Shown here: piece by piece, positions 14,911 through 55,168 of the stretch
Layout: every line of letters starts with the position of its first letter
Position numbering within the stretch: position 1 is the first letter of the stretch
Origin: Adineta ricciae
Taxonomy: Eukaryota; Rotifera; Eurotatoria; Adinetida; Adinetidae
NCBI GenBank assembly: GCA_905250025.1
Contig: CAJNOJ010000261.1
Coordinates: 1-64,000 of the forward strand
Reading direction: 5' to 3'
Length of the DNA: 64,000 bases
The notes under the pieces: model-generated
Databases searched by the model: none
Told to the model about the DNA's origin: nothing
What the model saw: the letters and a program-made list of their open reading frames with translations, nothing else
Made by a program: the position numbers and the translations under genes

Positions 14911-16065
14911 TTAATTTTGTTTGAAACAACAGTTTTTACAGAGACGCCAGTTGCATTGATTACATTGATATAATTTTGTCACATGGACTTTGCAAAAGAA
15001 ACAACGATGTCCGGGTCCACAATGATGCGAACAATTATGATTAACAAATGAAAATCCGCGACAATGTGTTGATGAATGAATACGTGAACACGAATTTCGA
15101 CAAGATTTCTTGGGACATACGAAATGTTTTTCATTTTCTCTCGGATTTATCGGAACATCAGCCGAAATCTCCGAGAGATTTTCATTTTCAATTACATTCG
15201 ATCCGTCTTCTTGACTTTGTTCATCCTCCTCTTCACGGTTTTGACGTTTCGTTAAATGAAAAACAATATTTCCATCATTATCTCTTTCTGAATCTTTCGC
15301 TTTACATAATTTACTTCCTGGCCAAACAAACATCACTTTGGAATTCTTTGTAAAAGCTGAAATATCTTTTCCACCAGTTCCAACATAACCAACGAAAGTA
15401 AATTTCTCATTGGAGTTTTCTTGTAAATATTTGAGAATTTCTTCTTTCGATAAAACACATGTTGCCATACAAGAAAAGAGTTCTGTTGAATCGTTTTCAA
15501 GGTGTTTCAATTGACCTTCATCTAAAAGAATTCCTTGCCAAATTTCTTCATTCACATCAGGTAATTTATCTAAACCATTTTTTAATAATTTCAAATATTT
15601 AAACCAATGTTTCATGATGGATTTATTATTGGAATTCCATGCATTTTCTAATAAATCATAAACACCGCTTGAATCTCTCATTGAATAAATATAAATCGCT
15701 GCTGATTCATCCTCAGTCAAACCGAATTCATTTGATTTGTTACAATTCAACTTGGCTTCATTAATATGATCAATTAATTGAGGATTTTCATCAAGAAACG
15801 GTTGCAGAGATTCTTCCAATGTGACGATTGGCTCATTTTCGAACCCTTGGATTAATAAATATGGATTTGTTTGACTAAAACCACATTTGTTAAATCTTTC
15901 TAAAGCGAATCGGGATTTTCCAACAAGTGAAACACTTTGTTTTCGTTCTTCTATCTTTTCCACATCAACACGTTTTATATCTGGATGAAATGGTGAAATT
16001 TCTTCACGTGTTTTAACACTCGGAAGAACATCAGAACGACGACAACAACAACAGCAACAACCCAT
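14911..16065 (-). CDS. ART-fold protein 1: Cys-rich N-terminus, ART-like domain, zinc-binding tail
   Basis: 384 residues in one exon. It begins MGCCCCCCRR, a glycine-2 plus poly-Cys start suited to lipid anchoring. Residues about 80-290 follow the layout of arginine-specific ADP-ribosyltransferases (R-S-E class): LTEDESAAIYIYSM, then WFKYLKLLKNGLDKLP, then a GGKDISAFT segment before PGSKL. The catalytic positions look lost. The arginine expected in the W-R-G turn is Gln (IWQGI), the Ser-rich turn is replaced by LFSCMAT, and the E-x-E before the Pro-Gly turn is missing (NSKVMFVWPG). After an acidic linker a Cys/His-rich tail (about 318-384) has CXXC pairs (CFFC, CNQC, CKNC) and clustered His, probably binding two or more zinc ions. 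Likely a membrane-attached binding protein rather than an enzyme; this is inference. Confidence 0.7.
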   Translation of the reverse strand: MGCCCCCCRRSDVLPSVKTREEISPFHPDIKRVDVEKIEERKQSVSLVGKSRFALERFNKCGFSQTNPYLLIQGFENEPIVTLEESLQPFLDENPQLIDHINEAKLNCNKSNEFGLTEDESAAIYIYSMRDSSGVYDLLENAWNSNNKSIMKHWFKYLKLLKNGLDKLPDVNEEIWQGILLDEGQLKHLENDSTELFSCMATCVLSKEEILKYLQENSNEKFTFVGYVGTGGKDISAFTKNSKVMFVWPGSKLCKAKDSERDNDGNIVFHLTKRQNREEEDEQSQEDGSNVIENENLSEISADVPINPRENEKHFVCPKKSCRNSCSRIHSSTHCRGFSFVNHNCSHHCGPGHRCFFCKVHVTKLYQCNQCNWRLCKNCCFKQN

Positions 16066-16156
16066 ACTTGATGAAGAAAAATGGCATCGATTTTTTTTTC
16101 TTCTTTTCTTTATATAAAACTTTTTTTTCTAAAACTTTCAAATATTTCAAGTTGAA

Positions 16157-17604
16157 TTATTTATTCTCTAGACGAATTATAGTTATTTGTTTAAAAGAAC
16201 AATTTTCACAAAGACGCCAATTACATTGATTACATTGATGTAATTTCGTCACGTGTTTTTTACACACAAAACAGCGATTTTGCGGAGAACAATGATGTGA
16301 ACATTCGTGATGAACAAATGAAAATCCACGACAATGATTTCGAGAATGATCAGCTGAACAAGAATTTCGACAACCGGGTCGAGAACAGAAGAAATGTCTT
16401 TCATACGTTTTCTTTGTTATGACCTCTTTTGGCATCGGAGAAATATGAATTGGAACGAAAATATCAATCGAAGGTTTTCGACGAGATACCTTCGGATGAT
16501 CTATCCATCCTTGTTCAATTGGAATTGGTTCAGGTTTTCGAACGGGCGATTCTAAAATAAAAATGAAAGATTTTTCAAAACTGAACATTTTCATTTACCT
16601 GAACGTGGTTTCAGATGGAAATAAATATATCCACAAAAATCCCTTATTTCAGTCATTATACTACTAACTTTCAATCCTGGCCATAAAATCACCGAAATCT
16701 TTTTCCCTGGTGTGTAATCTGTAACATCTTTTCCTCCAGCACAGAGATATGTTACTGAGCATAATTTTCCATTTTTTGCTAAATCACGATGCTTGCTGAT
16801 ATCTGGTTCTTCTGGCTTTGCCTTCGAAAGTGCCGTGTATATGGACGAAGAACTATTTTCCAACATGTCTTGAATACTTTCATCACAAGAAACAATTTGA
16901 CAAGCTTTATCAGCATCGGGTAATTTATCTAAAGCATTCTTAAATAGTTTTAAAAACTTCAACCACTTCTTCATGGCGGATTTATCATTGAGACTCCAAT
17001 CTTTGTATAGTAGTTGACAAACACCATCTGAAACCTCCATCGAATAAATGTAAATTGCTGCTGATTCATCAACAGTTAAACCGTGCTGAGACGATTTGTT
17101 ACACTTGGCTTTTGCTTCATCGATATAACTGCGTAATTGAGGATTGTCTTGAATAATAGGTTGTAGAGATTCTTCAAATGTAACATCTGTTTCATCTTCG
17201 AAGCCTTCAATACAATCCAGAGGATTGAAATTCTTAAGACCCAATTCATGTGCATTTCCAACATGTGCAATCTCATGTATTTTTTCAATTCCAGAAAAGG
17301 AAATGATTTTGATTTGAACTGATGGATCATATGTTAATTGATTTTTGTAAACTCGTTTGTTTTCTTTAATTGGATCTGGAAATGATTCGGATTCGATATC
17401 GGCTTGACGAACGGGTTTAATCACTGAATCGACATCTGATTCGGATATAGGTGTGGGAAGATCATAACAGCAACAACAGCAATCAAACCATTTTAAACAC
17501 CCTCTGGCGGCAGTTCTTCGAGCACATCGACAACACGAACATTTCTTTCGTGAAGAGTAATCAAGTATTCCATCTTCATCCGATTTACTTGAACCACAAC
17601 CCAT
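16157..17604 (-). CDS. ART-fold protein 2, two exons
   Basis: Exon 1 is 17604-16599 and exon 2 is 16551-16157. A 47-nt phase-1 intron (GTAAAT...TTTTAG) joins PRS to ESPVRKPEP, giving 466 residues. The N-terminus MGCGSSKS fits the consensus for N-myristoylation (Gly2, Ser/Thr near position 6) and is followed by several Cys clusters (CSCCRCARR, CCCCCYD). The ART-like core has LTVDESAAIYIYSM and WLKFLKLFKNALDKLP. The expected catalytic arginine region reads ACQIVS, and the E-x-E position reads KKISVILWPG, so the triad again seems absent. The last 65 residues form the same Cys/His-rich domain as in protein 1 (CRNSC, CRGFSFVHHECSHHC, CNQCNWRLCENC). It lies head-to-tail behind protein 1 on the same strand. 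Confidence 0.72.
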
Positions 17605-18438
17605 TCAGAAAAAGAGAATTTTCTAAAAAACGGCAATGCTGTTGTTGTTGTCGACGTTGGCAAGGAAGAAAAATATGATAAAAATTCCCCGTAGAAGGAG
17701 AAAAAGAAAAGAAACGTGTTTGTTACTCATTGATCAAATATACTCGAAAAAGAAACTGTAGATTGAATTATGTTCGAATATTTGAATAAATCAAACAACA
17801 CTTTCAAGTGAATTACATTTACATTCTTTTTCGATAAATTTGTTTTCAAACTTCGAAAATATTATTCGAAATATTTTCTTTTTTTTTTAGGAATTCAGTG
17901 ACTTCGTTTTGAAGTTCAATAGAGTCTTTTTGTCTGAATGATTAGTGAAAAATGTGGTTTATCTGTTGAGTAAAAGTTAATCTTTATGGCTGTTCTTCTG
18001 TTCTGTACGTCACAATGATTTATGTTGCGAGTATCAATTACAGTGCATATGAAACCACACTTCTTAAGTTGGAAAAATGTTGAGTATTTCCTATGCATCA
18101 TTGTGACCTTCTGTCGTCAAGAGTGTGTTCGATATTCATAAAAGACAAAGAAATTACGTTGTGGTTTTGAATCTATGAGACATTTTTCTTATTGATATTG
18201 AAGTCAATCCTTCACGTCCCAATGCACGAATGAATGTACATCATTTGAGTATCATTGACTTCAGACTTTAAAATGTACCCGATAGAGAAAATGTACATTT
18301 TTGAATATATTGTGAAGTAAGAATAAAGAAAAGCAAAATTTCAGAGCGTCTGCTCTGGTCATTTTTTCGTCTTCTTCAAAATACTTTTATTAGATCGTAT
18401 GCTATATTGCTAGCACATTCATTGTACTTGCACCTCGC
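17605..18438. other. Intergenic between divergent genes
   Basis: Upstream region shared by the minus-strand ART-fold gene and the plus-strand small Ser-rich gene. The whole segment recurs in a diverged copy at about 19900-20675. No further gene is seen. Confidence 0.5.
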
Positions 18439-18446
18439 TATATAAA
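18439..18446 (+). promoter_or_regulatory. TATA box of the small Ser-rich gene
   Basis: TATATAAA, followed about 30 bp later by a plausible transcription start region (CTCAACAGTCAG). The first exon ends at 18520 with CATTACG|GTAAGA. The same arrangement is kept in the copy at 20676-20683. Confidence 0.55.
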
Positions 18447-18520
18447 TACTTGGTACATCGACTCAACAGTCAGAAATACAAACGACAGATATCACATTTT
18501 TCAATTCATTCTGCATTACG

Positions 18521-18913
18521 GTAAGATGAAGCTTAAATGAGAACAGAATTTTGGAACATGTATTTCTATATGTATAAAAAGTGTTCTGTTTAATCATGTG
18601 CACCATCTAGCACTTATTGGGCCTCACTAGGGGCTCATAGGAACTGCTTCAATAGTGTTTCAACTGAAATGAATTGAGTTGTTAATTGGTTGACAGTTGA
18701 TGGAGAAAATTATAGAGCTGTGAAGAAGAATAAAACTCTTTTTTTCTGTTTCTGTGACTATAATTGAAATGAATTGGTTCACCAATCAACCATTGGTTAA
18801 GTTCAGTTAAAAAGAACTGCAAACAGTTCCTTGAAGTGAATTGAACTTGTGTACTCCTATCTCCCAGATAAAAAATTTCGGATAACAATACAGCAAATTT
18901 TTGATCATTTTAG
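18521..18913 (+). other. 5' UTR intron of the small Ser-rich gene
   Basis: GTAAGA at 18521 and CATTTTAG ending at 18913, six bases before the ATG at 18920. At 393 nt it is much longer than the 45-60 nt introns of neighbouring genes. Its length and position suggest it may carry regulatory sequence, but this is inferred from splice signals alone. Confidence 0.5.
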
Positions 18914-18919
18914 AAAGCG

Positions 18920-19273
18920 ATGAGCAGCTCGAATTCATCTTCAGACAGCGGTCAAACTCCGACTGCGGACACTTGCTCTAGCGGTGTTGATGGTTATTGG
19001 AGTCCAGACGTTATACGGAGAGGAGCTGAATCTTCATTTCTACCGAATTCATATTCATCTACAATTTCATCAATATCATCGGTGTCATCAATACCATCAT
19101 CATCATCAGCAGACGATGTATCGTCATCTGAATCAGCTGCAGCACCATTGCCGGGTGCAGCTATACAGCAGGTACAGAATCCAAGACCAACAGATATGAA
19201 TGATTATGGTGGCACATACAGTACTACTAACTCTTCTGGAACAGTTCGAAATTTTCCTCCAAAAAAAAGCTAA
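18920..19273 (+). CDS. Small Ser-rich, low-complexity protein
   Basis: 117 residues, starting MSSSNSSSDSGQTPTADT. The middle is almost all Ser/Thr/Ile/Pro/Asp (ISSISSVSSIPSSSSADD), and the C-terminus contains MNDYGGTYSTTNSSGTV. There is no signal peptide, helix or known domain. Predicted disordered. Start choice rests on the upstream TATA box and the 5' UTR splice acceptor immediately before the ATG. Function unknown. A truncated copy lies at 21078-21329, in which the C-terminal third is best conserved. Confidence 0.6.
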   Translation: MSSSNSSSDSGQTPTADTCSSGVDGYWSPDVIRRGAESSFLPNSYSSTISSISSVSSIPSSSSADDVSSSESAAAPLPGAAIQQVQNPRPTDMNDYGGTYSTTNSSGTVRNFPPKKS

Positions 19274-19433
19274 AGACATTCTTCACCTTTATTCATTTGC
19301 ATTTGCATGTCATACTTCTATATACGATAGTGTCTTCAGCAATGATCGAAAAGTAGAGTTTATATCAATTAATCATTTTAATTAATAAAGTTCTCACTGC
19401 AATATGTCAATTATTATGATCATTCACACTTCA

Positions 19434-19580
19434 TTGAAAATGATCAACTACTGACGAATATGAAAACAGCTGATGAAATAATTACAATTAGTGATCCACC
19501 GCGTATTATCGATATTCATCGATCTGTTTCAAATAATAACATTTCGTTTTGGATGGAAAACAGATAAAAACAAATTCTCA
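19434..19580 (+). pseudogene. Inverted fragment of the F-box gene 3' end
   Basis: Plus-strand DNA reading ENDQLLTNMK-like codons followed by ISDPPRIIDIHRSVS. It is an inverted, slightly diverged copy of the last exon of the minus-strand F-box gene (about 21660-21805). It ends at the single N at 19581. Confidence 0.7.
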
Positions 19581-19581
19581 N

Positions 19582-19899
19582 AAGTCCAGAAAAGGAAATG
19601 ATTTTGATTTGAACTGATGGATCATATGTTAATTGATTTTTGTAAACTCGTTTGTTTTCTTTAATTGGATCTGGAAATGATTCGGATTCGATATCGGCTT
19701 GACGAACGGGTTTAATCACTGAATCGACGTCTGATTCGGATAAAGGTGTGGGAAGATCATAACAGCAACAACAGCAATCAAACCATTTTAAACACCCTCT
19801 GGCGCCAGTTCTTCGAGCACATCGACAACACGAACATGTCTTCCGTGAAGAGTAATCAAGTATTCTATCTTCATCCGATTTACTTGAACCACAACCCAT
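19582..19899 (-). pseudogene. 5' fragment of an ART-fold gene
   Basis: Codes the first about 105 residues of a near-identical copy of ART-fold protein 2 (MGCGSSKSDEDRILDY...IKIISFSG) and then hits the N at 19581, losing the ART-like core and the zinc-type tail. A few substitutions distinguish it from 17300-17604, so it is not a simple sequence echo. Confidence 0.75.
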
Positions 19900-20675
19900 T
19901 CAGAAAAGAGAATTTTCTAAAAACGGCAATGCTGTTGTTGTTGTCGACGTTGGCAAGGAAGAAAAATACCATAAAAATTCTCCGCAGAAGGAGAAAAAGA
20001 AAAGAAACGCGTTTGTTATTCATTGATCAAATATACTCGAAAAAGAAACTGTTGTAGATTGAATTATGTCCGAATATTTGAATGAATCAAACAACACTTT
20101 TTCAAGTGATTTACATTTACATTCGTTTCGATAGAATTTGTTTTCAAACTTCAAAAATATTATTCGAAATATTTTCTTTTTTTCTGGAAATCAGTGACTT
20201 TGTTTTGAAGTTCAGTAGAATCTTTTTGCCTCAGTGACTAGTGAACAATGTGGCTTATCTGTTGAGTAAAAGTTAATCTTTGACTGTTCTTCTGTTCTGT
20301 ACTTCACAATGATTTATATTGCGAGTATTGATTGCAGTGCATATGAAACCACACTTATTAAGTTGGAAGAATGTTGAGTATTTCCTATGAATCATTGTGG
20401 CCTTCTGCCGTCAAAAGTGTGCTCGATATTCATAAAACACAAAGAAATTACGTTGTGATTTTGAATCTATGAGACATTTCTCTTATTGATATTGAAGTCA
20501 ATCCTTCATGTCCCAATGCACGAGTGAATGTACATTTTTGAATATATTGCGAAATAAGAATAAAGAAAAGCAAAATTCCAGAGCGTCTGCTCTGGTCATT
20601 GTTTCGTCTTCTTTGAAATACTTTCATTAGATCGTATGCTATATTGCTACCACATTCATTGTACTTGCACCTCGC

Positions 20676-20683
20676 TATATAAA
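20676..20683 (+). promoter_or_regulatory. TATA box in copied promoter
   Basis: TATATAAA in the same context as 18439-18446, followed by CATTACG|GTAACA at 20757, a slightly weaker donor than the original GTAAGA. The downstream acceptor has been deleted, so a normal transcript is unlikely. Confidence 0.5.
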
Positions 20684-21077
20684 TACTTGGTACATCGATT
20701 TAACAGTCAGAAATACAAACGACAGATATCACATTTTTCAATTCATTCTGCATTACGGTAACATGAAGCTAAAATGAGAAGAGAATTTTGGAATATGTAT
20801 TTCTATATGTATAAAAAGTGTTCTGTTTAATCATATGCACCATCTAGCACTTATTGGGCCCCACTAGGAGCCCATAGGAACTGCTCGAATAGTGTTTCAA
20901 CTGAAATGAATTGAGTTGTTAATGAGTTGACAGTTGATGGAGAAAACTATAGAGCTGTGAAGGAGGACAAAACTCTTTTGTTCTGTTTCTGTGACTACAA
21001 TTGAAATGGATTGGTTCACCTATCAACCATTAGTTAAGTTCAGTTGAAAAGAACTGCAAACAGTTCCTTGAAGTGAA

Positions 21078-21329
21078 TTGAACTTGTGTAATTGGAGTTC
21101 GGATGTTATACGGAGAGGAGCTGAATCTTCATTTCTACCGAATTCATGTTCATCTACAATTTCACCAATATCAGCATCGTCATCTGAATTAGCCGCAGCA
21201 CCATTACCGGGTGCAGCTATACAGCAGATACAGAACCCAAGACCAGCAGATATGAATGATTATGGTGGCGCATACAGTGTTACTCGCGCTTCTGGAACAG
21301 TTCGAGATTTTCCTTCAGGAAAAAGCTAA
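21078..21329 (+). pseudogene. Broken copy of the small Ser-rich gene
   Basis: Matches residues from about 27 onward of the gene at 18920 (SSDVIRRGAESSFLPNS ... MNDYGGAYS). A deletion of about 140 bp joins intron sequence (GAACTTGTGTA) straight to codon 27. It removes the splice acceptor, the ATG and the first codons. The Ser-rich middle is also shortened. The C-terminal end remains in frame. Confidence 0.7.
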
Positions 21330-21658
21330 AGACATTCTTCACCTTTATTCATTTGCATTTGCATGTCATACTTCTATATCCGACAGTGTCTTCAGCAATG
21401 ATCGAAAAGTAGAGTTTATATCAATTAAACTTTTTAATTAATAAATTTCTCACTTATAAATTTTCCAGTTTTCATGTCTATGCAAATCTAAAATAAGACG
21501 ACTTTTCATACAGTTGCACAAGCATGAGCATATTTTGTTTATTACATCCTTGGTTTCGTCCCGAAATATGGTATAAAAAAGAGGTCGACCCTTGAGTATA
21601 TGAATATGCGAAACTCACTACAAAAAAAAGCCCCTTAAGCTGCGTTTATGTTGAGAAT

Positions 21659-23939
21659 TTATTTACATCTGCTTTCCATCCAAAACGAAATGTAATTATT
21701 TGAAACAGATCGATGAATATCGATAATACGTGGTGGATCACTAATTGTAATTATTTCATCACCTGTTTTCATATTCGTCAGTAGTTGATCATTTTCAATC
21801 AAACTAAATTGCAAATATTTCAATTGATGTTCATTGCAATGATTGAGAATATAATTAGTCCATTTGTTAATAATACACCATGCTGATGAGACATGTTGAA
21901 ATTGAAAGAAATCAAGATATTCTAATTGAGAGAAACGTTGTCTATTGAGAATAAATGAAAGAAATGGTATCATCATTTCTTCATTCAAATATTCATTTGT
22001 AATTGATGAACATTCTATAAAGATTTTATCCAAACGTTGAAGGAATGTATTAAGATACTGATTATGAGAATCATTCGTAATCCAATGACGCAATTCACAT
22101 AAACCAACAAATAAACTTTTTATGTTTGGTAATAAACGGAACCAATTAATTGTTTCTGCAATAAAAAACAAAACATTGATAAAACGATTAATCCTACGAT
22201 TGTTAATCGATGATTGTGTTATCGCGATAACGAAAACTGAGATATATCGAACAAATGTGGACATACGTTGTATATTATAATCAGTTGTAATTTCAGATTC
22301 ACACAACAGTTGAACTGAAGTGAACTGTGTAAGTTGTACACATTGATATATATCATTTGGCATTATTCCTTTCGTACCTGTTATCGCTAATGTTTGATCT
22401 GTAACAATGGATTAAAGATAAAAAGAAAATTTTTTCTGAAAACAACTTTTACTTCGATTCGAAGGACATTGAAGTGCATAAAGAAGTGAAATTGGTATTT
22501 CCTCTTTTTCAAGAAAACACATCAACAAACAGCGCATTCCACACCAAAGGGATTTGAATGCGAAAGATAAATCATTTCCTGTCATTTGTATTCGTTCATC
22601 AACATTAAACAATGTATCGACGAAATCCGTTGTGCGATACAAAGTATTATCATAAAATTTATATGGAAGAGAGAATATTTGTACAAAATCCAATAGTTGA
22701 TGATAATTCACACACACTCGCATCTGACCCAATGGTCCATCGAGCCAAAAAGACGTTTGAAATCCTTTAATAAAATGATATAATATTTGTTGACTTGGCC
22801 GTGCGAGAAATCGTAAATGAATGGCAAAATGCAAAACTTTTAAATGGGTTAATCGATTACAAAGAGTGGCAAGACGGTGACTATCAAAACATATATCAAG
22901 TTGACCATCGCAAAAATGAACGAAAAACAAAGAAAATTCTTCGAGAGTATTGTGAAACTTCTCAACCAATTGATCAAGATAAAAACAATTGGGTCCCGCA
23001 ACTTGAAAATGTCTTAACAAAGTACATTCAGATGATGAAAACATGATTTCAAACCTAAATTTATTACCTTAAAATCAATACACGCAAGTTTTTCGGATAA
23101 TCGCATTTTCCGATGAGAGTTTGATCAAAATCATCAGTTCGACCCATAACCTTGGTAATATTTACATCTACATATGAAAACAAATATACACATATGTATA
23201 TTTACAAATCCTTACCTAAATGTTCAAGTTTAGGAAGATAATGTATGAGTACGTAAAATGTATTTAAATCGAGAATATCGATTTTGAGATAAGCAAGAGA
23301 ATAGTGCGGAATATAGTTTTGATTAATTGTATGTTCATACGTTAATTGAAAACCATCGTCAAGTTGAGAAATCTGCAATCGATAATGAGCAAGATTCGTT
23401 GAACATCGAAATAACCAATCAAAGAAAGGTTGTGAATGATGAATTTGACTTGGACAAGCATGACATGTAAATCTACGCATTTTTGCTCCTCCAGCTATTA
23501 CTGATAATAAGATATCAATAGAATCTTCATCGAACAATCTTGTTAAAGAAATATGTAAAGAAGTTAATTGAGGAAATATTGGTTTTAGATGTTTGTATGA
23601 CTTGGTATTACGAGAGAAATTTCCTTGTTGTTCGACAAGTGATTTGATCACTCCGTCTAGAAATAATTCGATTTGAGAACATCGAGCAGAATTTCCTAAT
23701 TTCAAAACAGTAAGACCAAAATACCAATCACTCGTACTCGGTACGATACGAGAAAGAAAACGACAAGCTGCTAATGAACAATAACGTAAGTCTAATTTTT
23801 TGTAAAGTCCATAAAATTCTGATAGTAAACAATTGAGACGAGTATTCAGATTGGAAAAACTATAAATAACATCAGCAGATGATAAATAATCCCAAATGCA
23901 AAGTAAAATTTCGTTGCACATGTGTTCAAGTTGAAACAT
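21659..23939 (-). CDS. F-box protein with leucine-rich-like C-terminal region
   Basis: Reading 5' to 3', exons are 23939-23216, 23167-23068, 23054-22453 and 22398-21659, about 721 residues if joined. The N-terminus (MCNEILLCIWDYLSSADVIYSF) is an F-box, which recruits SKP1/cullin ubiquitin ligases. The rest has irregular leucine-rich segments (LTVLKLGN, LTSLHISLTRLF, LEYLDFFQFQ) likely to bind a target. Introns 1 and 3 are 48 and 54 nt, both phase 1, with normal GT/AG ends. Between exons 2 and 3 only 13 nt (GTAATAAATTTAG) must be removed to keep the frame. That is too short for a usual spliceosomal intron, so this may be an indel lesion. The 3' end is partly copied in inverted form at 19434-19580. 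Confidence 0.7.
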
Positions 23940-34731: not shown

Positions 34732-34837
34732 NTGAGAGTGTGTATTACAGAATGGAGAAGATCGTGTCTGAAAAGTGCATATAAGTTTGAGATACCATCA
34801 CTGACATTCACACTCTCAAAATGAAATCTTCTATAAG

Positions 34838-37199: not shown

Positions 37200-40100
37200 A
37201 CAAGAAATGAAAACTGTTCATGAAAAATTGATTTTTTTTCTCTCGTTATTTTTCTGTTATTTGACTTTTCTTTATAGTGCTACAGAATAAAACCTCATAG
37301 GTAATATGAATAGTAAATCATGATGATATGCGATAACTTTCAAGAGTGTGGATTGGAGTGAAAAATTTTATAATTGAAATCTATAGAGCTCGTCAAACTC
37401 TACCTGGAGCGGCTTTTTGATCAAGCTAAATAGTACAGTAGCAAATCTGCTTGGGGTTTTCCAAAAGTTTCATGTTTTCTTACAATTTTAGGGATTTATG
37501 AAGAGAAATTAGAGCTGTTCTCAACAATTCTATCATTGAAATCGATAGGGCACATTGAGTTGAACTTAGAACCAGTGGGATCAGAACTGGAACACATATT
37601 CAGAACGGATGAATCTTGAAAAAAAATTCGAATCAGATGATAAGATAACTTACGTAATTGTCCAGCTTAAATTTGATTCGAACTATTTAACAATGGTGCG
37701 AAATGAAGCAATACTTCTTTACACGGATTTGTCATTCAAAGAAGAAAATAGAAATTATTCTTTTCTCAGCATTTTTATGAAAAGACAATAATAAACAAGC
37801 GTTTAATCTCTTTGAGAAAAATATTCTCCGCTGACCATATACTCAAATACATTATTTTCTTGAGACTCTCTTATTTATAACATTTCTTTCAGTTTTATTC
37901 TTTGTGGAATAAATCATTAGACAAATAATAGGATGAGTGTTTGTGATTCTCATGAGTAATCTCATAAAAAATATCTGTTCTCTATGTGACTATGCAGTTG
38001 AGAATCAATCTTCGTAAACTATCACATCTGGGAAAATCGAGTAACTAATAAAAATTTATTTTGATCTCGATTTATTCCAACATATTCTTTTATTTACAAA
38101 TGAATCAAACAGCACATCTGTATTCACATAGTATCGTTAGGAATGGTTACATCTCTTGGTATTGTTTATCAACAAGTGTTTATCTTAGAAACACTCAAGA
38201 AATCTATCGAAACTAATTTAACAAAAATAAGATAGGGTAAAGATGTAGATTTTACCATGTCGATCCATAAGAGATATTCAATAAGGATTTATCCTTTCCT
38301 TCATTGCCAATGAAAAAGGACGAGTTTTTTCAGGATGATAGAGTCGATCCATTATAAAAAATATCATTTTTAATTAAAGAATATTTTATCCCTATTTTGG
38401 CGTAACAAGTCTAACTAAAGAGACAATGCTCAATCTTAATATATCATATATTTTTCGTTGAGTGATATCTTTTTATCCAATGACGCACTGTTAAATGATC
38501 ATTAAAAATGTGTATGTTCATTCGTTTCTACCTTCGTTTACGTCACAAGAATCTCTATAGCAAATAACAATTCAAACGATGCAATTTTTTGTGGATCTGC
38601 TGGTAGATGTGATTCGAGCAAGACCTCATAAATTTTCAAAACGTTGCTCCATCAACATATATTTCAATAGGTGCACATGATCGTATTGATCCAAATAATT
38701 TCCCCGGTATTGTTCATTGAAGTCCATAACTGACTTATTCAATTAGAACCTGTCAAAAGAATGAGGGTGTGCCATGTTTTCCCATCTCTACGCCTATGCT
38801 TTCATCTTCACCCTCAAATAGCGACTTTCCATATATAATATCCGTTACATTTTTTGTTCGATCTTATTAAACTTTGAACGATATCATGTTTTCAATACGA
38901 AAATTCCTATTCATTTTCGCGAGACATTTCTTTAAATATTCTATTTATATTAACATATGTCTGTCATTGAAAAATATTATATCATACAGTCTATCATATG
39001 AATATATCTTTTATAATAAGATATTGTCATTGCATAATGTTCTTGATACATCTGCCTTCGTCTCGTTAATCATCTNNNNNNNNNNNNNNNNNNNNNNNNN
39101 NNNNNNNNNNNNNNNNNNNNNNNNNNNNNNNNNNNNNNNNNNNNNNNNNNNNNNNNNNNNNNNNNNNNNNNNNNNTAATATCTCATACATTCTATCATAT
39201 AAATATATCTTTTATAATAAGATATTGTCCTTTCATAATGTTCTTCATACATCAGCCTTCGTCTCGTTCATCATATCTTTCACCTTATTCTATCAAAGTT
39301 TATTTCATTCTATATTATATATGAAATCCGATTGAAATTCAATCCAATCATAAGTGTTTCATATCATATAGTATAGACATTATTCCTTCAATTTGTTTTT
39401 CGATAATCATAAATTAAGTAAAGAAAATATTTGTATTATAGTGAAGAGAAAAGATCAATTAAAGTAAAAGAAGTAAATAATATTTGATAAATACATCTTA
39501 TTTTGTAAAAAAGAAAAAATATGATGACAATAGAAACAAATTGATTGAGAATCTCTATGAAATAGAACGAAAAGAAAAATTCTTTGACAAAAATGAACAT
39601 TTATTCATCAGAGAATAGATAAATATATTAATTAGAGGTAAATAATCGTTTTTAAGATGATTTATTCCCGATGAATAAGAAGAAAGAATATCAAATTGTT
39701 CAATGACAATAATCTTTTTAAAAAAAGTTTGTTTTTTCTTTCAATATTTTCATCTCAACTCACCGAGTAATGAAATCGATCGGTAAATAAAAGTTGAATT
39801 TAAAAATGGAACTAATGCTTTCATATATCAACAAGAATTATACATTGGTTGATTCTGTTTTATTTTGTGTAGTCTACTTGACCTTAAAAAGCTTGTATGA
39901 AACATTGTCTATCGATCTAGTCGATACTTTTTTTCGTATTATTCTCACCGTCCGTGACCTCTTCTCTTATATATATATATATATGCACTTTATGATTGAA
40001 CGTCACTTATTTTCCTCTGAATATATAGAAATGTATGTATTAGACGATTGATACAATTGATCGTGTGAATACGTTAAGTAAAGTAACTATATATTTCTTT

Positions 40101-43109: not shown

Positions 43110-43379
43110 TCAATAGATAAGTTTATGTCATATTATTTATCATTGTAAATAGTCGACTTCAAAATTATACTATCACTTTTGTGTATCAATTGATATTATC
43201 TTAATAAATCGTTTTTTCTGCTACACTTACACGTTTTTGCACATTGATGTGAATAATTCGAGGAACAAAAATGAACATTTCATATCTTGAAGGTGAGGGT
43301 GAGGATGTTTTGATATTAAGAAACATACTCATAATCATATACCCTCCTATCCTATCCATTCGTTCATTCCTATGTCAAC

Positions 43380-43740: not shown

Positions 43741-44218
43741 TATATCGTTCTGAAATATATCAATAATAATAAATGAACTTTTCTATTGTAATAGAATATG
43801 CATGTGAGATTTGAAGGGTTCGAAAGAAATTAGAAAAATTTCCGAGAAAATTGTCTTTTTTCCTTGTTTATGAGAACAGGAGAACGAACGGAAAGAAAAT
43901 CGAAGCAAACCGATAACACGTGTTCTTTTGTATCGGCTGATGTTGTTTTGAGGGTGAGAAAAGTGGTTTTTTTTCATCATGGGATAAATTTTCATTGTAA
44001 GATTTCTTTAATTTTAAAAGAAAAAGTAACATCTTCGCTAATTTCATTCAGAATCATTTAAAGTTACTCAAAACCTATTTTTGGCTTTTCACATGGATTT
44101 TTTCCCATTAAAATACCCAGTTTTGTTATGACATATAAACATCACATAGCACAGAAAGAAAGAAAAAACACTTCATTTCATTTTAGTAACTTATATTCAT
44201 TCAACTCGGTCAGAGACA

Positions 44219-45006
44219 ATGCCAAATAAGAAACGACAACAAGGTACAGTTCTCAGGTTTGAGACAGCCATTCGATATTTTTTAAAATTCATTTTCAGCT
44301 CGCCATAATGCAAAACAAGCAACAAATGATTTACACGAGGTTTCTACCCCAGTCTTTTCACCCTCAGTCGCTGAATCAGAATTAACCACTGACTCAACGA
44401 ATAAAGTTGAACTCCCCGTCACAACAAATACGACATCTCAACCGTCAACTGTTCCTAAACCAGCATGGGGTCCTCGTCAAGAACCACCTCAAAACATTAC
44501 AACACCAAAACCGGTTTGGGGATCAGGACAGCAGCCATCTGCCATACCCAAATCAACAGCTGATTCTTCAACGAGAACTTCCACTCGAATTGAACGTTCC
44601 TATAGTGTTGTTCCAACAACAAATCAACCAACACGAAATTCATCGCGCGAATCTCGTTGTCAAAGCGTTGTTTCCACACGACGTAGACGATATATTTGTT
44701 CAGTAGTTCCTGATAGTGCCGTATTAACACCAATTCGTCGACCAGATAACGGTGGAACAAGTGGAACTGAAGTTTTAGTTTATACAAATCATTTTAAAGT
44801 CGATATGGACGATGCGATTATCAATCAATATGATGTCGACATTCATTCGATAGACAATCGAGGAATAACACGATCTGCACGAAAAGATGAACGATGGGAA
44901 GTTGTTAAAAAAATCGTTCAAGAAAATGAAAATTTTCCAATGGTTTGGTAAGAAGATTAATTTTTAAAATAAATCAAAAAGAGATTTCTTTTTTCTACAG
45001 GTATGA
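44219..45006 (+). CDS. Argonaute, 5' part only
   Basis: Exon 1 is 44219-44243, exon 2 is 44299-44947, and exon 3 starts at 45001 and stops at the N at 45007. It encodes the N-terminal tail and the first part of the N domain of an Argonaute nearly identical to the complete gene at 46645. Two Trp-Gly motifs ([16 protein letters not shown]) are kept. After the N comes an intron of the receptor gene, so the rest is missing. Whether a second complete Argonaute exists in the genome cannot be judged here. Confidence 0.75.
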
Positions 45007-45007
45007 N

Positions 45008-45517
45008 ACAAAAATGTTTTCTTTACTTTTGTTCTTTTTTTGTGATAATTAGGCGATTAATGAAACCGAATCACTTACAAGTCATGAATCGAAATTTTCG
45101 GGAATTTGGTATCCAACATTTGTAGCTGATGCAAATCATATGTTTATTTCATCGAGTGAATATATTAAATTATCAAATTTAACATCAACTCAAATAACTC
45201 TTACAATAACTGAAACATCGTATTATATTAAAAATCGTCAATTACCTATTGCTAAATTACGTGAAATTATTTTTCATAATCTTCTCTTTACAATTGTTTG
45301 TATTGAAATATTTCATTTATGTATTCTTCTATGTAAATTAATGATTATTCCTCCATTGAAGTTTATTGGGAAATATTTTGTTAAATTGAATCAATTTATA
45401 TCGAAAAAAACAAAGGAAAGTATTACTCGTGATATTCTTATGGATGATCATAGCACAGTAACAACAATAACAACAACTACAACAACAAAAGATTGTAATG
45501 TTATTCAAATTAGTTAA
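45008..45517 (+). pseudogene. Last exon of the receptor-like gene, second copy
   Basis: Starts in intron 2 directly after the N at 45007. The exon at 45053-45517 reads AINETESLTSHESKFSG through the last helix to a Thr-rich tail (TVTTITTTTTTKD) longer than that of the first copy (TITTTTTTND). The upstream exons are missing. Confidence 0.75.
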
Positions 45518-45775
45518 TCAATAGATAAATTTATGTTATATTATTTATCATTGTAAATACTCGACTTCAAAATTATAATATCACTTTTGTATATCAATTG
45601 ATAGTGTCTTAATAAATCGTTTTTTCTCCTATAATTACACGGTTTTGCACATTGATGTGAATAATTCGAGGAACAATAAATTGTACTTTCCATTAGATAT
45701 GTTCGCAGGGTGAGAACGTTTTGATATTAAGAAACATACTCATATTCATATACCCTCCTCCAGTCGTTCATTCCT

Positions 45776-46115
45776 ATGTCAACTGTGCCCAATTTCACAA
45801 CATCATCTGCACTCTCGCCCTCCTCACCCACGTCTAGTAGGTTGTATTATTCTCGAAGTACATACATGGCATTGATATTAACCAACGAAAATGTATTAGT
45901 TTATAGTGGCGAAGAGGATATGGCTACAACTTTGAATACTACTATGCTGTACAATTCATCATCCGGATCATGGACACTTACAGATGATATGCTAATTGTG
46001 TGCGACATTCTCACACAGAGTCTATATTGACTAATGGAAAAGTGTTGGTAATAGGATGAGATGATTCAAAAGGAGAATTAACTCGTATAGAATTCTATGA
46101 TCCACCATCAGGATT
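45776..46115 (+). pseudogene. Decayed kelch repeats, second copy
   Basis: Copy of 43380-43740. ALILTNENVLVYSGEED and MLYNSSSGSWTLTDDM are readable in one frame, then indels and a stop follow. The next blade (TNGKVLVIG, FYDPPS) is in another frame with a stop after IG. Independent lesions in the two copies indicate that neither is under constraint. Confidence 0.6.
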
Positions 46116-46644
46116 GCAGAGAACTACTGGGAATATCCTCGTTGTCGGTAGCGAGTATAGTTATACGGTTTTGTATCGTTATGAAATATATCAATAATAA
46201 TAAATGAACTTTTCTATTGTAATAGAATATTCATGTAAGATTTGAAGAGTTCGAAAGAAGTTAGAAAAATTTCCTAGAAAATTGTCTTATTGACTTTGTT
46301 TATAAGAACAGAAGAACAAACGAAAAGAAAATCGAAGCAAACCGATAACACGTGTTCTTTTGTATCCGCTGATGTTGTTTTCAGTGAGGAAAATGAGTAT
46401 TTTTCATCATGGGACAAATTTTCATTGTAAGATTTCTTTAATTTTAAAAGAAAAAGTAACGTCTTCGCTAATTTCATTCAGAGCCATTTAAAGTTACTCA
46501 AAACCTATTTTTGGTTTTTCACATGGATTTTTTCCCAGTAAAATACCCAGTTTTGTTATGACATATAAGCATCGCATAGCACAGAAAGAAAAAAAACACT
46601 TCACTTCATTTTAGTAATTTATTCATTCAACTCGGTCAGCGACA

Positions 46645-49600
46645 ATGCCAAATAAGAAACGACAACAAGGTACGGATCTCAGGTTTGAGACAACCATTCA
46701 ATATATTTTTTAAAAACATTTTCAGCTCGAAATAATACAAAACAAACCACAAATGATGTACACGAAGTTTCTACTCCAGTCTCTTCACCCTCAGTCGCTG
46801 AATCAGAATTAACCACTGACTCGACGAATAAAGTTGAACTCCCCGTCACAACAAATACGACATGTCAACCGTCAACTGTTCCTAAACCAGCATGGGGTCC
46901 TCGTCAAGAAGCACCTCAAAATATTACAATACCAAAACCGGTTTGGGGATCAAGACAGCAGCCATCTGCCATACCCAAATCAACAGCTGATTCTTCAACG
47001 AGAACTTCCAATCGAATCGAACGTTCCTACAGTGTTGTTCCAACAACGGCTCAGTCAACAGGAAATCCATCGAGAGAGTCTCGTAGTCAAAGCGTTATAT
47101 CCACACGACGTCGACGATATATTTGTTCAGCAGTTCCTGATAGTGCCGTATTAACACCAATTCATCGACCAGATAATGGTGGAACAAACGGAACTGAGGT
47201 TTTGGTTTATACGAATCATTTCAAAGTCGATATGGACGATGCGATTATTAATCAATATGATGTCGATATTCTTTCGATAGACAATCGAGGAATAACACGA
47301 TCTGCACGAAAAGATGAACGATGGGAAGTTGTTAAAAAAATCGTTCAAGAAAATGAAAATTTCCCTATGGTTTGGTAAGAAGATCAAATTTTTAAAATAA
47401 ATCAAAAAGATATTTCTTTTTCTATAGGTATGATGAAGGTAAAACATTGTATACACGAAGTTTATTGACGGATTTTACTAAACCGATTGAAATCAATATG
47501 AAAAGAGGCGATGAAACAAAAAAATACCAATTAGTTATTATTAATCTTGTTCGACAAGATAAAATTTCGAATATATTCGATTTTATCGAGAAGAAAACAA
47601 CAACTCGACCACGTGATACAATCAGAATTATTGAGACACTTTTTAAACAACGTGCAAGAAATGATCTCATTTGTGTTCGAAACCAATTTTACAATCGAAA
47701 TCAAATACTAGACGATCTCCGTATGTGGATCATTTTCTCTTTCCATGATAAACATTCATTTCTTTTCGTAGATGATGGTCGTGGAATGGCCAAAGGTTTC
47801 TATCAAGCCTTATTTTTAACTCGATGTGGACCAACGTTAAATGTTAATCTGACATTCACTTGTTTTTATATACCATTGAAATTCGTCGATTTTGCTTGTA
47901 AATATCTACGAAAAGATATTACGAGAAATTTTACTGAACACGAAGGAAAATTATTTCAAAAAATTCTTCGAGATTTACTGGGTATATGAACGATTGTTTC
48001 CACCATGAAATCAGTTATTCTTGTTGTTTTTAGTTGAAACAGAACATACAGGTCGAAAAATTCGTTATAAATTCCGTCGATTTGGTCTTCCTGCAAATCA
48101 ATTGATGTTCACTGTCGGTGATGAAAATGAAAATTCTTTAGCTCAAAAGATCAGCGTTGAAGATTATTTCAAACAAAAGTATCATATGCAACTACAATAT
48201 CCACATTTACCATGTATTGATGCAACTAACGGAACCAATAGACGAGCGAATTGGTTGCCAATGGAAGTTGCCAGTGTAAGTCCATTCATTTCTCTTTTTT
48301 TAAGAAGAAAAATTCCAATGAGTTTAGATTGTGGAATGGCAAAGATCACTGAAACCATTAGATGCAACACAACGAGCATTGGTTTCGGGTAAATCGATCA
48401 TAAAACCCTTAGAACGATATAATCAAATAATGAGTATAATGAATTCGCGTGATTTTGACAATGATGTTTATTTGAAAGAATTGAATATTCGTGTACAAAA
48501 ACAAGAAATGCTTTCGGTCAAAGCTCGAATACTTAAAGCACCAACGATTCAATATCGCGGACCAAAACAACAAGATATTATCGAATCCGTCAATGTTGGT
48601 AAATGGAGAATTAGGAATTGGTTTTACAAAACAACAGAGATTTATTCCTGGGGAGCGATTTATTTCGGTTCAAAACCACCGGATAACGCAACAAAAGAGA
48701 TTCTCAATAACTTTGTCGGACAATTTCCTGAAGTAAATCATCTTCTTAAAGACATTGTATCAATGCATTTTCATTGTCTTTGAAGTTACTCAAACGCAAA
48801 GGTTTCGTCATTCGATCAAAATTCGATTTACGACTTGAGCCCGATCGAAAACAAAATATCGAACGAGTTTTAACGGATGCGAGTCAAAATCGGTGGCAAT
48901 TGGCTGTGATTATTCTCGATACAACTATCGATCAAGTTTATGATTATGTTAAACAATTAGGAAATCAACAATTAGGACTTCGAACACAATGCATCGATAT
49001 GAATGCATTGAAAAAGAACACAAATAATTTCTCGATGTGTAAGACAATCTTCGAAAAGCTTTCATTTAGATTTGTTCTTTTGTTTAGATGTGGACAATTT
49101 AAGTCAGAAAATTAATGGAAAATTAGGTGGAATTAATAGTTTTGTGAATACAAAACTTGCGTTAAGTCGATCATCGAAAGAAGATGTGTTTATGTTCTTT
49201 GGAGCAGATGTATGTCTTATCTATGTCGAAAGATTTTATTGGAATTATTCTTTGTTAGGTTACTCATTCAACATGTTCGACGGATCGACCATCGATTGCA
49301 GCTGTTGTTGCTTCACGTGATCCAACAAATACTCTTTATGCTGCTCGACTGTGTGAACGTAAGATTTTGAGAAGAATTTCAAATAAATTCGCAATTCTTT
49401 TCGTTGGGAATAGAATATCCGAAAAAAGGTCGTTGTTCATTGGAAATTATCAAAGAATTGGATCAAATGGTTGCGGATTTATTACGTTTATTTGCACGTA
49501 CATGTGGTGGACGTCTTCCGAATAAAATTGTTTTCTACCGTGATGGTGTTGATGAAGGACAATATCAAAAAGTATTAGATAACGAAGTGAACAAAATCAA

Positions 49601-50269
49601 ACATGCGTGTCGAAGTAAATCTTTGTTGATTCTGATTGATTCTTTCATTGAGGATTGATTTTAGTTGTTTACGGTGCCAATCCATTACCGAAATTGACTT
49701 TTATTGTAGTCAAGAAACGACATAATACACGTTTTTTTCTTTATCAAGACGGGAAAACGTTGAATGTTGAAGCAGGAACAGTAATTGATCAAGGAATAAC
49801 TCATCCATCACAATTTGATTTTTATCTTTGTTCACAAGCAGCGATGTAAGAAATTTTATTTGAGGAAATTCGAATGAAAAAATTCTTTTCTTTTTTAGAA
49901 TGGGTACATCTCGACCAACACTTTATCATGTTCTTCACGATGATATTGGATTTAATAGTGATGATTTACAACAATTAACATATTGGTTATGTCACACAGA
50001 TATGCGTTGTACGAAATCAGTTTCCATTCCAGCACCTGTTCATTATGCGCATCTAGCAGCGTATGGATCACGTTCGTTGAAATTTGAAGATGATCGAGAT
50101 TCAGAAGGGTAAGAAGAAATTTTGAAAAGATCTTTTTCGCATTGAAATCTTTAGTTCGATGATTGATGGTGATGATGATGATGAACCTCAAACATATTCA
50201 CTTGACGATATTCGAACACAACTGATGATTCTTGATCCGAAAGTGGCTGATGATATGTGGTTTATCTAA
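46645..50269 (+). CDS. Argonaute (AGO-type) with WG-containing N-terminal tail
   Basis: Twelve exons: 46645-46669, 46726-47374, 47428-47981, 48034-48275, 48328-48732, 48786-49038, 49088-49209, 49259-49358, 49414-49614, 49665-49845, 49899-50108, 50155-50269. They sum to 1019 codons in one frame, with introns of 46-56 nt. After a Thr/Ser/Pro/Gln-rich tail come the N domain ([13 protein letters not shown]), DUF1785/PAZ region ([29 protein letters not shown]), MID and PIWI. Slicer residues are all present: Asp in FFGADV, Glu in SLEIIKEL, Asp in [10 protein letters not shown] and His in SRPTLYHVL, so target cleavage is plausible. It would bind small RNAs for gene or transposon silencing. One acceptor (TTTGAAG, 48785) is unusual. 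The tail contains PAWG and PVWG motifs like those of GW/Ago-hook proteins. Bdelloids are known to carry expanded Argonaute sets. Confidence 0.85.
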
Positions 50270-50551
50270 ATTGATCTTTAGTTGAAGAACTTCAGAAGTC
50301 TTCTGATCGAGAATGATATTATGCAAGCAAACCATTTTGAATATCTATACTTAATTCTCTCAGTTTCGGAAAAATAAAAACTTCAGACTCAGGCGTAAAT
50401 GTTATTTCGAAAACTTTTATCAATGCTAAACAAACTTATAAAAATAGAGTGAAGTAGAATGCTATCTTTCTCATATTGACTCAGATATAATGATATCATG
50501 GTTTATTCCGAATGACGTATATTGGAATTTTCCTTGACACGTGTGTATTAT

Positions 50552-50559
50552 TATATATA
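50552..50559 (+). promoter_or_regulatory. Likely TATA box for the small gene at 50890
   Basis: TATATATA about 80 bp before a strong 5' splice site (ACAG|GTAAGAG at 50637). Together with a likely 5' UTR intron ending near 50856 (TTTGAAG), this resembles the promoter layout of the small gene at 18920. Confidence 0.4.
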
Positions 50560-50889
50560 CGCGTGCTGTTGGATTTCTCATTTTCAAAAATAAGCGAAGC
50601 TCTCAGACACTTAATCAACGAAGAAAAACAAAACAGGTAAGAGAGCATTTACGAAATCCATAGAGTATCAGTATATCTGCAGTTATATATAGTGCCCTCT
50701 GTGATAAACAAAGCATAAAGGTACATAGGTGTTGTATATGATATCATTTATATATCGAATTCTTTTCTCATACTGGTTATTTTTTCTTTCTTGCCTTTTT
50801 CGACATCGTTCTAATCCATTGATTCTAATCGCACGCATACGTCTTTTTGTTTGAAGGTACTTTCGTGTACGACTTAAAGAGATTTCAAA

Positions 50890-51285
50890 ATGAGTCCACG
50901 CACTACTCACGTTGCGAACGCTTGCGATTGTCCAATCTGGGTCACATGTATTCCGAATCAACAAACTTCTGTTTCATTTGTTGCTCAACAGACCGAGAAT
51001 CTCAGAGCAGAGGTTAACCAAGGTGCAGGAAATGCTGCAATGTTATCGGGTCTAACTAAAATCAATCCAGGTAATAAGTTGGCCTGGGTAACGAACACAA
51101 GCCACTTTAGTGGGGAAATGGTTTATATAACGATTTTCTAGGAAAAGAATGGTCAGTATAAACCCGTGTGCTTAGGGTTTGTAGTGGAAGCGAATAGAAG
51201 TGTAATAGTTGATGCTGAATATTGTGTTAAACGAACAAAAATGGGTGAAATATGGATTGATACCGATGGAAACGACCATAGCTGA
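50890..51285 (+). CDS. Small protein with one in-frame TAG
   Basis: From MSPRTTHVANACDCPIWV the frame is open for 83 codons, then TAG (51139-51141), then open again for 47 codons to TGA at 51283-51285 (EKNGQYKPVCLGFVVEANRSV ... TDGNDHS). The sequence after the TAG looks protein-like and completes a beta-rich single domain whose first strand (NACDCPIWV) is reminiscent of small uncharacterised metazoan proteins. Explanations are a point mutation, stop-codon readthrough or removal of a very short segment (GTTTATAT...TTTCTAG, 21 nt, phase 0, bounded by GT and AG). No signal peptide. It lies 620 bp after the Argonaute on the same strand but has its own TATA box. Function unknown. Confidence 0.5.
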
Positions 51286-51717
51286 GCTTTGAACGATATA
51301 AACTTTAAATTACAAACCCGTCTACAATCAAAGCATTTTAGTCTGTTATTTCATCCTCACTGCCGAAATTTTCGTTGGCTACCATCGTTCACATCTCAGA
51401 TGTTCTATTAAAATTGATTCCAAACTATACATACGACCGTGTTTATCCTTTGTTCAAAGGATGTCTTGCGATATGTATGTGGGTTAGTTTCGAGTAGAAT
51501 TTCAAGTTTCCAATAATCGCGATTTCGCTCTGTATTCCATTGATCAGTATAAACTAAATTCAGAAATCATCATAAAAGATCCTAAATATATGAGTAAGAC
51601 TCTAGAAAATTGTTAATATCTATTTGATTTATATCTATATGATCGGAAGGGAATTAGAAAAAACGCCGAATACTGACAACAATAAAACAAAGTATTGAAA
51701 TTTCTTTCTTCATTTCA
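51286..51717. other. Intergenic between convergent genes
   Basis: Nothing recognised. It would hold the 3' ends of the small plus-strand gene and the minus-strand ART-fold gene. Confidence 0.4.
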
Positions 51718-52899
51718 TTATGTCAAAAACTGCTGAAAACAGCAATCATCACAAAAACAAATTTCACATTTGTTGCATTGTAATAATTGTTTTGAATGTT
51801 TTCCACATTGACAGCATTTATTCTTTAATACACAATGATGTTTACATTGATGATCAAGATATTTAAAACCATAACAATGGCCGATTTTGTGTTTACCACG
51901 GCAAAAATGACCGCAATTTGTATTTCGACATACAAAATGCGTTTCAAGTTTTAATTCGGGTGTTGCTGGTGTAGGAGGAGCTACACATGAATATAGAAGC
52001 AAATTAGGTAAGTTAATAATCATAATTGTATACTTACAAGTTTTTGATGTTAAATGTATAAACACTGAACCATCAGTTTGATGTTCCACCGTTTTCATTA
52101 CGAGCAGTTTTGCTCCTGGGAGAATACTTCCATCTGATTTCTTTTCTGGAAATATGATCACTTTCATTTGATTATTTTCTGTATAATCACCCACTAATCT
52201 GCCATAATTCGGTTCATAAGCAAGAATAATACTCGGTCCATTCAGACAATCTTTAATTTCATCAATTGAAGTTACGGCTGAGCCAAGTGAAGGATATAAT
52301 GGTGTCGGTCCTGAACTGAACATAGAGTTTGATGAATTTTGGTATCTCATCAGTTTCTCTTCGAGTTGTGAATCATACGAAGTTCCTTGAAAAATCGTTG
52401 TTTTTGCATACGGTAATTTATCCAACGCATTTTTCAATAATTTCAAATATTTGAACCACGGTTTGACTTGTGCGCGCTGTCCTGAATCGAATGCTCGCTT
52501 TAATTCCTCGCATAGCGATGATGGTTCCCAATTCATTGAATAAAGATAAATCGCAGCTGATTCATCATGAGTAAGACGGTGTTTCGTTGAACGATTACAT
52601 TTAGCTTTGGCTTGTGCGATACACTCAGGTAGATGCGCAATTTTACGGTTGGTAAATTTCAAAGCTTCTTCAAGTGATACATCTGGTTCATTCTGGTAAC
52701 CATCGATTAGTTTCGAAATGTTTTGGGTAGTAATACAAAAATATTCAAAATGTTTTCTGCCAGTTTTTCGTTGAGACTCATTCGTAGTAGGTTGGACATA
52801 ATTACTCGGCAATCGCTGTATTTGGGGTTCATCATCACAACAACAACAACGACAACAACAGCAACAACAACAATCGAGACTGCTACATGAAGACCCCAT
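51718..52899 (-). CDS. ART-fold protein 3 with poly-Cys N-terminus and zinc-type tail
   Basis: Starts MGSSCSSLDCCCCCCC, a Gly2/Ser context for N-myristoylation followed by a dense Cys run for palmitoylation. The ART-like core reads LTHDESAAIYLYSMNWEPSS, then WFKYLKLLKNALDKLP. The expected catalytic Arg is Gln (TIFQGT) and no E-x-E precedes the Pro-Gly turn (MKVIIFPEKK ... LPGAKL). A 57-nt stretch at 51981-52037 (GTAAGT...GTGTAG) has perfect splice ends, is phase 1 and happens to be in frame. It is probably an intron, giving 374 residues instead of 393. The C-terminus repeats the Cys/His module (HFVCRNTNCGHFC, HQCKHHC, CNKCEICFCDDCC). More diverged from proteins 1 and 2 than those are from each other. 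Confidence 0.7.
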   Translation of the reverse strand: MGSSCSSLDCCCCCCCRCCCCDDEPQIQRLPSNYVQPTTNESQRKTGRKHFEYFCITTQNISKLIDGYQNEPDVSLEEALKFTNRKIAHLPECIAQAKAKCNRSTKHRLTHDESAAIYLYSMNWEPSSLCEELKRAFDSGQRAQVKPWFKYLKLLKNALDKLPYAKTTIFQGTSYDSQLEEKLMRYQNSSNSMFSSGPTPLYPSLGSAVTSIDEIKDCLNGPSIILAYEPNYGRLVGDYTENNQMKVIIFPEKKSDGSILPGAKLLVMKTVEHQTDGSVFIHLTSKTCKYTIMIINLPNLLLYSCVAPPTPATPELKLETHFVCRNTNCGHFCRGKHKIGHCYGFKYLDHQCKHHCVLKNKCCQCGKHSKQLLQCNKCEICFCDDCCFQQFLT

Positions 52900-55167: not shown

Positions 55168-55168
55168 N

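Follow-up and report, generated by a model that had tools for sequence, protein, structure and literature searches.

Seven Cys/His-tailed proteins of the rotifer Adineta ricciae form a clade of probable pseudo-ADP-ribosyltransferases with a lipid-anchor-type start

Inactive ADP-ribosyltransferases (ARTs), or pseudo-ARTs, are already a known kind of protein. Mammalian ART3 and ART4 are described as inactive ARTs with a changed R-S-EXE motif (PMC2576468), PARP13 is given as inactive (PMC7955679), and the same source presents LRRC9 as a predicted pseudo-ART, conserved in eukaryotic evolution, whose active site is divergent and which is linked to further domains (PMC7955679). In Adineta vaga, 'ADP-ribosylation' appears among the enriched terms in stress responses (reported in PMC10809525 and PMC12220480), which makes it worth knowing which ART genes are active. 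Here we describe a family of proteins from Adineta ricciae, three of whose genes lie in one 64,000-nucleotide stretch of DNA (contig CAJNOJ010000261.1, positions 1 to 64,000; the window). These proteins combine a Met-Gly start containing Cys residues, an ART-like core that has lost the catalytic signature and a Cys/His-rich tail; as far as searched, the three-part architecture and the tail are what is new here.

Whole-genome searches took in 130,461,839 bases on 1033 contigs (assembly G000). With the tail of one window gene (g1) as query, seven loci were recovered, and the tails of two other members returned the same seven plus one weak extra match each. All seven loci encode the Met-Gly start, the ART-like core and the Cys/His tail, so that the domain order noticed in the original prediction is present in the three window genes (g1, g2 and g3) and in four further genes of the same genome, at C285 (~89.3-90.4 kb), C162 (two genes, here C162a and C162b, one lying at ~73.2-74.5 kb and the other at ~130.3-131.6 kb) and C19 (~567.4-568.5 kb). 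Copies are clustered, with g1 and g2 adjacent and the C162 pair ~57 kb apart. One of the weak extra matches (C19:577220, E 0.03) is part of an eighth, decayed copy (L073, C19:576.7-577.4 kb), in which stops separate a piece of the core from a broken tail. In a tree of 52 rows, comprising the seven tailed proteins and 45 ordinary ART open reading frames (ORFs), the tailed group forms a single clade with support of 100/100; across its seven members 60 alignment columns are invariant, 21 in the tail and 39 elsewhere.

All three window genes lie on the reverse strand. The first, g1 (14911-16065), is intronless and encodes 384 residues in one open frame, beginning with MGCCCCCC and followed by the ART-like core (15241-15894, about residues 58-275) and the tail (14911-15132 including the stop codon, residues 312-384). 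The second, g2, starts with MGCGSSKS and a second Cys cluster ahead of the core, all within exon 1 (16599-17604); a predicted 47-base GT-AG intron (16552-16598, GTAAATG...TTTTAG) separates this from exon 2 (16157-16551), which encodes a linker and the tail, and the spliced product (17604-16599 joined to 16551-16157) has 466 residues. Position 16157, previously listed as a gene, does belong to a real family gene but marks only the second exon of g2. The third, g3 (51718-52899), has an MGSSCSS start with a Cys run, the core and the tail; its predicted 57-base intron (51981-52037, GT-AG, GTAAGTAT...TGTGTAG) is in frame, giving 374 residues if spliced and 393 if read through. Six of the seven genes carry a single predicted intron, 47-57 bases long, that separates the core from the tail; g1 is the exception, and all introns of the family are predictions from DNA.

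On sequence grounds, the core can be identified as a divergent ART domain of common descent with the genome's other, ordinary ARTs. For comparison we used 46 ART loci, of which 30 were chosen by PF01129 score and 16 for their similarity to g1. Searched with a profile built from the seven cores, these loci yielded matches to 45 of 103 ORFs (at least 120 residues) at E<=1e-3, spread over 43 of the 46 loci; the other three (L024, L031 and L036) had no ORF matching the core profile and hence are outside the 45 ordinary ORFs. Profile-profile comparison (hhalign) of the seven cores with eight of these ordinary ARTs gave a probability of 100 and an E-value of 7.7e-44, and those eight in turn matched solved ARTs in the PDB, including Vis (4xzj, 1.5e-11), T-cell ecto-ADP-ribosyltransferase 2 (1og3, which we take to be rat ART2.2; 1.1e-5) and bacterial effectors. 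We therefore propose an ART fold for the core from its homology to ordinary ARTs, in agreement with the earlier proposal of an ART-like core; the sequence evidence does not point to a core that folds otherwise. PF01129 itself gave no hmmscan match to the four window proteins or to any of the seven cores at E-values up to 10. Window-protein matches to SSXT (0.034), DKMTPPase (0.11) and betaxyl_Flavo (0.15) were taken as chance, and matches of one core in seven each to SSXT (0.0076, below cut-off) and TRI9 (0.13) were left unused.

The genome that holds this family has a large ART repertoire, with at least 150 matches to PF01129 (from 553 first-look candidates) and at least 149 to PF03496 (among the best 150 of 359 candidates scored). 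The two match lists partly overlap, many matches lie in open frames of 300-1500 residues, and no PF01129 or PF03496 match was found in 14 control genomes. With at least 150 PF01129 matches alongside it, the tailed family is a specialised branch of this repertoire rather than a one-off invention.

What sets the tailed group apart is the loss of the catalytic motif. The catalytic columns read R, S, E and E (R-S-E-x-E) in 45 of 45 ordinary ORFs, a count that does not represent a random sample, since the ORFs were chosen for their ART score or their resemblance to g1 and near-copies are among them. At the Arg position, all seven tailed genes have Gln (in g1 within WQG, in g3 within FQG). Ser is kept in two of the seven (g3 and C19), the first Glu of ExE in none, and the second Glu in two (C285 and C19), with Asp in C162a and C162b, Val in g1 and Ser in g2 at that position; g3 cannot be safely aligned at ExE, and we disregard the Asp scored there for the second Glu because it sits inside an insertion. 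The full R-S-E-x-E is thus found in none of the seven, and this loss indicates that the core is probably a pseudoenzyme. Judged by these residues, the family probably consists of pseudo-ARTs and probably no longer transfers ADP-ribose. The earlier interpretation stands in treating these genes as one family with a fixed domain order, an ART-related core and a metal-type tail; it overlooked the loss of the catalytic signature, including the change from Arg to Gln in all seven.

Of all the segments of these proteins, the tail is under the strongest constraint. It is 70-84 residues long, and 18 of its 21 invariant columns are occupied by Cys (12) or His (6), which bears out the description of a C-terminal Cys/His-rich domain of metal-binding type. 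Ratios of non-synonymous to synonymous substitution (dN/dS), from Nei-Gojobori counts, are 0.23 (g1/g2), 0.38 (g1/C285) and 0.17 (g3/C19) in the tail, with 0.46-0.53 in the core and 0.94-1.41 in the linker of the same three pairs; as dS is near saturation between these older paralogues, their ratios are rough, and for the g1/g3 tail, dS being likewise near saturation, dN/dS was not estimable. In the young C162 pair the corresponding values are 0.60 for the tail, 0.65 for the core and 1.44 for the linker.

From its ligand pattern, we infer that the tail is a candidate zinc-binding domain. The profile search with the tail that had been suggested earlier was run and returned no significant Pfam or PDB match, and zinc-finger Pfam models gave no match to the seven tails at E-values up to 10. 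Single-tail Pfam matches to Ndufs5 (1/7, E 0.028) and DUF6094 (1/7, E 5.4) were taken as chance, and the best PDB match of the tail profile, the regulatory chain of aspartate carbamoyltransferase (E 0.93), was rejected as not significant. Searches of viral and prokaryote contigs, with one peptide pattern each, matched 2 and 13 stretches, respectively, none of which proved to be a relative by tblastn; in the tail searches of the Adineta ricciae genome, nothing was found outside the seven genes besides the decayed copy and a weak match at C17:361465. As a lead only, the end of the g1 tail (C-x2-C-x9-C-x2-C-x4-C-x2-C) resembles the first six ligands of a ZZ-type zinc finger in its spacing. Unlike a ZZ finger, the tail lacks the trailing His pair and has an extra upstream half rich in Cys and His, and no ZZ match was found in the seven tails.

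At the other end of the protein, the Met-Gly start is invariant in all seven members, each of which has at least two Cys in its first 30 residues; beyond these features the N-termini can scarcely be aligned. Reading upstream from the Met-Gly codons, none of the seven genes shows a further in-frame ATG before the first stop, although an additional exon may lie upstream. The start had been called dense in Cys; this is true of the window genes, where g1, g2 and g3 have 6, 5 and 12 Cys, respectively, among residues 1-30, but the other four have two or three (C285 and C162b 3, C162a and C19 2). Among the 45 ordinary ART ORFs, the first Met is followed by Gly in two (L061 and L044), and no ORF reaches three Cys within its first 25 residues, a test that five of the seven tailed genes would pass. 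L044, on C193, is a motif-intact ordinary ART ORF that has a myristoylation-type start of its own (MGQSSS). A PROSITE-type N-myristoylation pattern (PS00008-like) fits Gly2 in all seven tailed proteins, and N-myristoylation and palmitoylation of the Met-Gly and Cys start are plausible from these motifs. Such a start argues for a cytosolic location, unlike that of the secreted or glycosylphosphatidylinositol (GPI)-anchored vertebrate ART ectoenzymes. In g1 and g3, the runs of Cys lie over (ACA)n trinucleotide repeats (16042-16061 and 52837-52873), so that the length of the runs may partly reflect repeat expansion.

Taken together, we consider a membrane-held pseudo-ART adaptor or regulator the best account of this family, with a probability of roughly 0.5. 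In such a protein, the N-terminus would probably be myristoylated and palmitoylated, holding it at the inner face of the membrane; the diverged core, its catalytic residues lost, would keep a conserved helical stretch and serve as a binding platform; and the tail, a compact domain with ligands enough for three to four zinc ions, would recruit a partner. The adaptor could compete with or control the motif-bearing ART paralogues of the same genome, and the size of the repertoire, in which the presence of the motif was checked in the 45 ordinary ORFs, makes this regulation an attractive idea. A far more specific version, which we regard as a long shot, makes these proteins a new inner-membrane class of pseudo-ART. 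Their multi-zinc domain would belong to no known type, the class would have become fixed through an Arg-to-Gln change in the common ancestor, and its members would bind the animal's many motif-bearing ARTs and restrain or guard against them, adding a layer of control to an unusually large ADP-ribosylation repertoire.

Several observations weigh against the adaptor account. The core is poorly recognised by general models: scanning the window proteins against Pfam and NCBIfam yielded no usable match, only one of the seven cores has a weak ART-type Pfam match (PF03496, E 0.12, below cut-off and unused), and the seven-core profile matches the PDB weakly, with Vis at E 0.013, counted as support only, and non-ART chains scoring nearly as well (an amyloid-like protein at 0.016 and a geminin-like coiled coil at 0.039). 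A structure model from the four window sequences, with helices followed by strands, is of low confidence (mean predicted local distance difference test score 49.6, predicted template modelling score 0.42) and was not used for fold claims. To these we add the selected comparison set and the saturated dS noted above, the two weak extra tail matches beyond the seven loci, the second of them at C17:361465 with E 0.26, and an overall dN/dS of 0.78 in the C162 pair. The stronger signal for myristoylation, a Ser or Thr as sixth residue, occurs in only three of seven (g2, g3 and C285), and N-terminal dN/dS values of 0.58-1.35 in five pairs point to weak sequence constraint there. Finally, with the second Glu kept in C19 and C285 and Asp in two members, partial chemistry would be possible.

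This last point bears on the reading that the tailed proteins are active enzymes with a migrated or non-canonical site, in which Gln would stand in for Arg in NAD (nicotinamide adenine dinucleotide) binding and the remaining Glu or Asp would carry out an altered reaction. Such a site would fit the invariance of Gln at the Arg position, the acidic residues at the second ExE position (Glu in C19 and C285, Asp in both C162 genes) and the Ser of C19 and g3, and the account in PMC7955679 leaves the same option open for its own pseudo-ART family. We nevertheless think it unlikely, as the first Glu is missing in all seven and g1 and g2 have neither Glu nor Ser, g3 being uncertain in alignment there; moreover, mammalian ART3 and ART4, with their motifs changed, are described as having lost activity (PMC2576468). 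Doubtful to a like degree is the idea of a soluble pseudo-ART with no lipid anchor, in which trinucleotide repeats would have produced the Cys-rich start incidentally. The (ACA)n repeats under g1 and g3, the strict Ser/Thr in only three members, the two or three Cys of four members and the loose N-terminal dN/dS are all what this would predict, but Met-Gly with at least two Cys persists in all seven despite an otherwise hardly alignable N-terminus, and the ordinary ORFs rarely or never begin in this way (Met-Gly in 2/45, three or more Cys in 0/45, as against 5/7).

The family might also be a bait or guarded decoy, a pseudo-ART mimicking a host or microbial ART and watched at the membrane in defence; a pseudo-ART core, a membrane-type start, clustered copies (g1/g2 and the C162 pair) and a large ART repertoire would all suit such a role. 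This seems quite improbable to us, because the core shows no fast evolution (dN/dS 0.46-0.65) and no immune domain is attached in the gene models. Least credible, and in our view very unlikely indeed, is that these genes are decaying ART relics without function. Catalytic residues have been lost, a decayed copy exists on C19 and a truncated one in the window (19516-19899), and the C162 pair has an overall dN/dS of 0.78; against decay stand seven open gene models, six of them with a GT-AG intron, the 60 invariant columns, and the dN/dS of the tail, which is 0.17-0.38 in the three older pairs and 0.60 between the two C162 genes.

The truncated copy just mentioned, a fragment noted earlier at 19582 as related to the family, is a copy of the g2 start (19516-19899, reverse strand) whose homology ends at a single undetermined base (N) at 19581, a point that is either an assembly join or a real breakpoint. 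Beyond that N begins an inverted match to ~21652-21802. The surrounding DNA is duplicated: a segment of some 2 kb (17287-19398) that contains the start of g2 together with DNA upstream of it has a second copy at ~19582-21454, the two being 92-94% identical, in pieces. This duplication of the 17.3-19.4 kb block up to the N is possibly a haplotype misjoin. Ten N places occur in the window, nine of a single base and one of 100 bases (39076-39175), and GC content across the 64 kb is 26-41% per 2 kb. This GC content, the short introns and the animal-like neighbouring genes fit a bdelloid rotifer. The repeat TGTGGG, tried as a bdelloid telomere marker, was rejected: it gave 12 forward and 26 reverse matches, as against 14 and 30 for the reversed array used as control, and no clear pattern at contig ends was apparent. 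Elsewhere in the window, we found a frame of a retrotransposon-type endonuclease (Exo_endo_phos_2; 6372-7790, forward strand), a reverse-strand frame (12305-13582, with an N inside at 12381) combining a HIT-like domain (PF22088) with a histidine phosphatase domain (PF00300), and Argonaute-like exons on the forward strand (47447-48392; ArgoL1 at 47447-47989 and PAZ at 48021-48392). Two ABC transporter genes lie on the reverse strand (55145-56593 and 60213-63917), the latter a single open frame of 1234 residues with two membrane and two ATPase stretches.

Neither the architecture nor the tail was found in the domain libraries or in the literature titles and opening lines of abstracts searched, and none of the latter describes a rotifer ART expansion; this is a weak test of absence from print, which to that extent agrees with the original prediction that no family of this exact architecture has been described. 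So far, pseudo-ARTs have been known singly (ART3/4, PARP13, LRRC9), and here the loss is clade-wide, in seven of seven. Such a clade, in which the shared loss goes together with a Cys/His domain of no known class and a start of lipid-anchor type, would give a workable example of how an enzyme fold can become a membrane adaptor, and its tail is a candidate new family of zinc domains. It also carries a warning, that a high count of ART genes need not equal that many active enzymes.

By descent, the nearest known proteins are the PF01129 ARTs (R-S-E type, including vertebrate ART1-5) and their expansion in this genome, to which the tailed core is homologous. In alignments both share the block order LTxDE..AIY.YT, KLP, xRG, SC(S/T) and ExEVLL; the tailed family differs in having Gln for Arg, in the loss of ExE and in giving no PF01129 match, and the 45 ordinary ART ORFs lack its Cys-rich start. 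PARP13/ZAP, which belongs to the PARP (H-Y-E) branch, has CCCH fingers at its N-terminus and exists in a lipidated form; it offers a parallel in joining a metal-binding domain to an inactive ART-fold domain, but the domain order differs and the architecture is not the same. ART4 is a GPI-anchored ectoprotein, whereas the tailed family has a cytosolic-type lipid start, and we know of no Cys/His tail in ART4. In LRRC9, the ART lies between leucine-rich repeats, and its description in PMC7955679 gives no such lipid motif or tail. Like ART3 and ART4, the tailed family has lost the R-S-EXE motif, and ART4 too is described as held at the membrane (PMC2576468).

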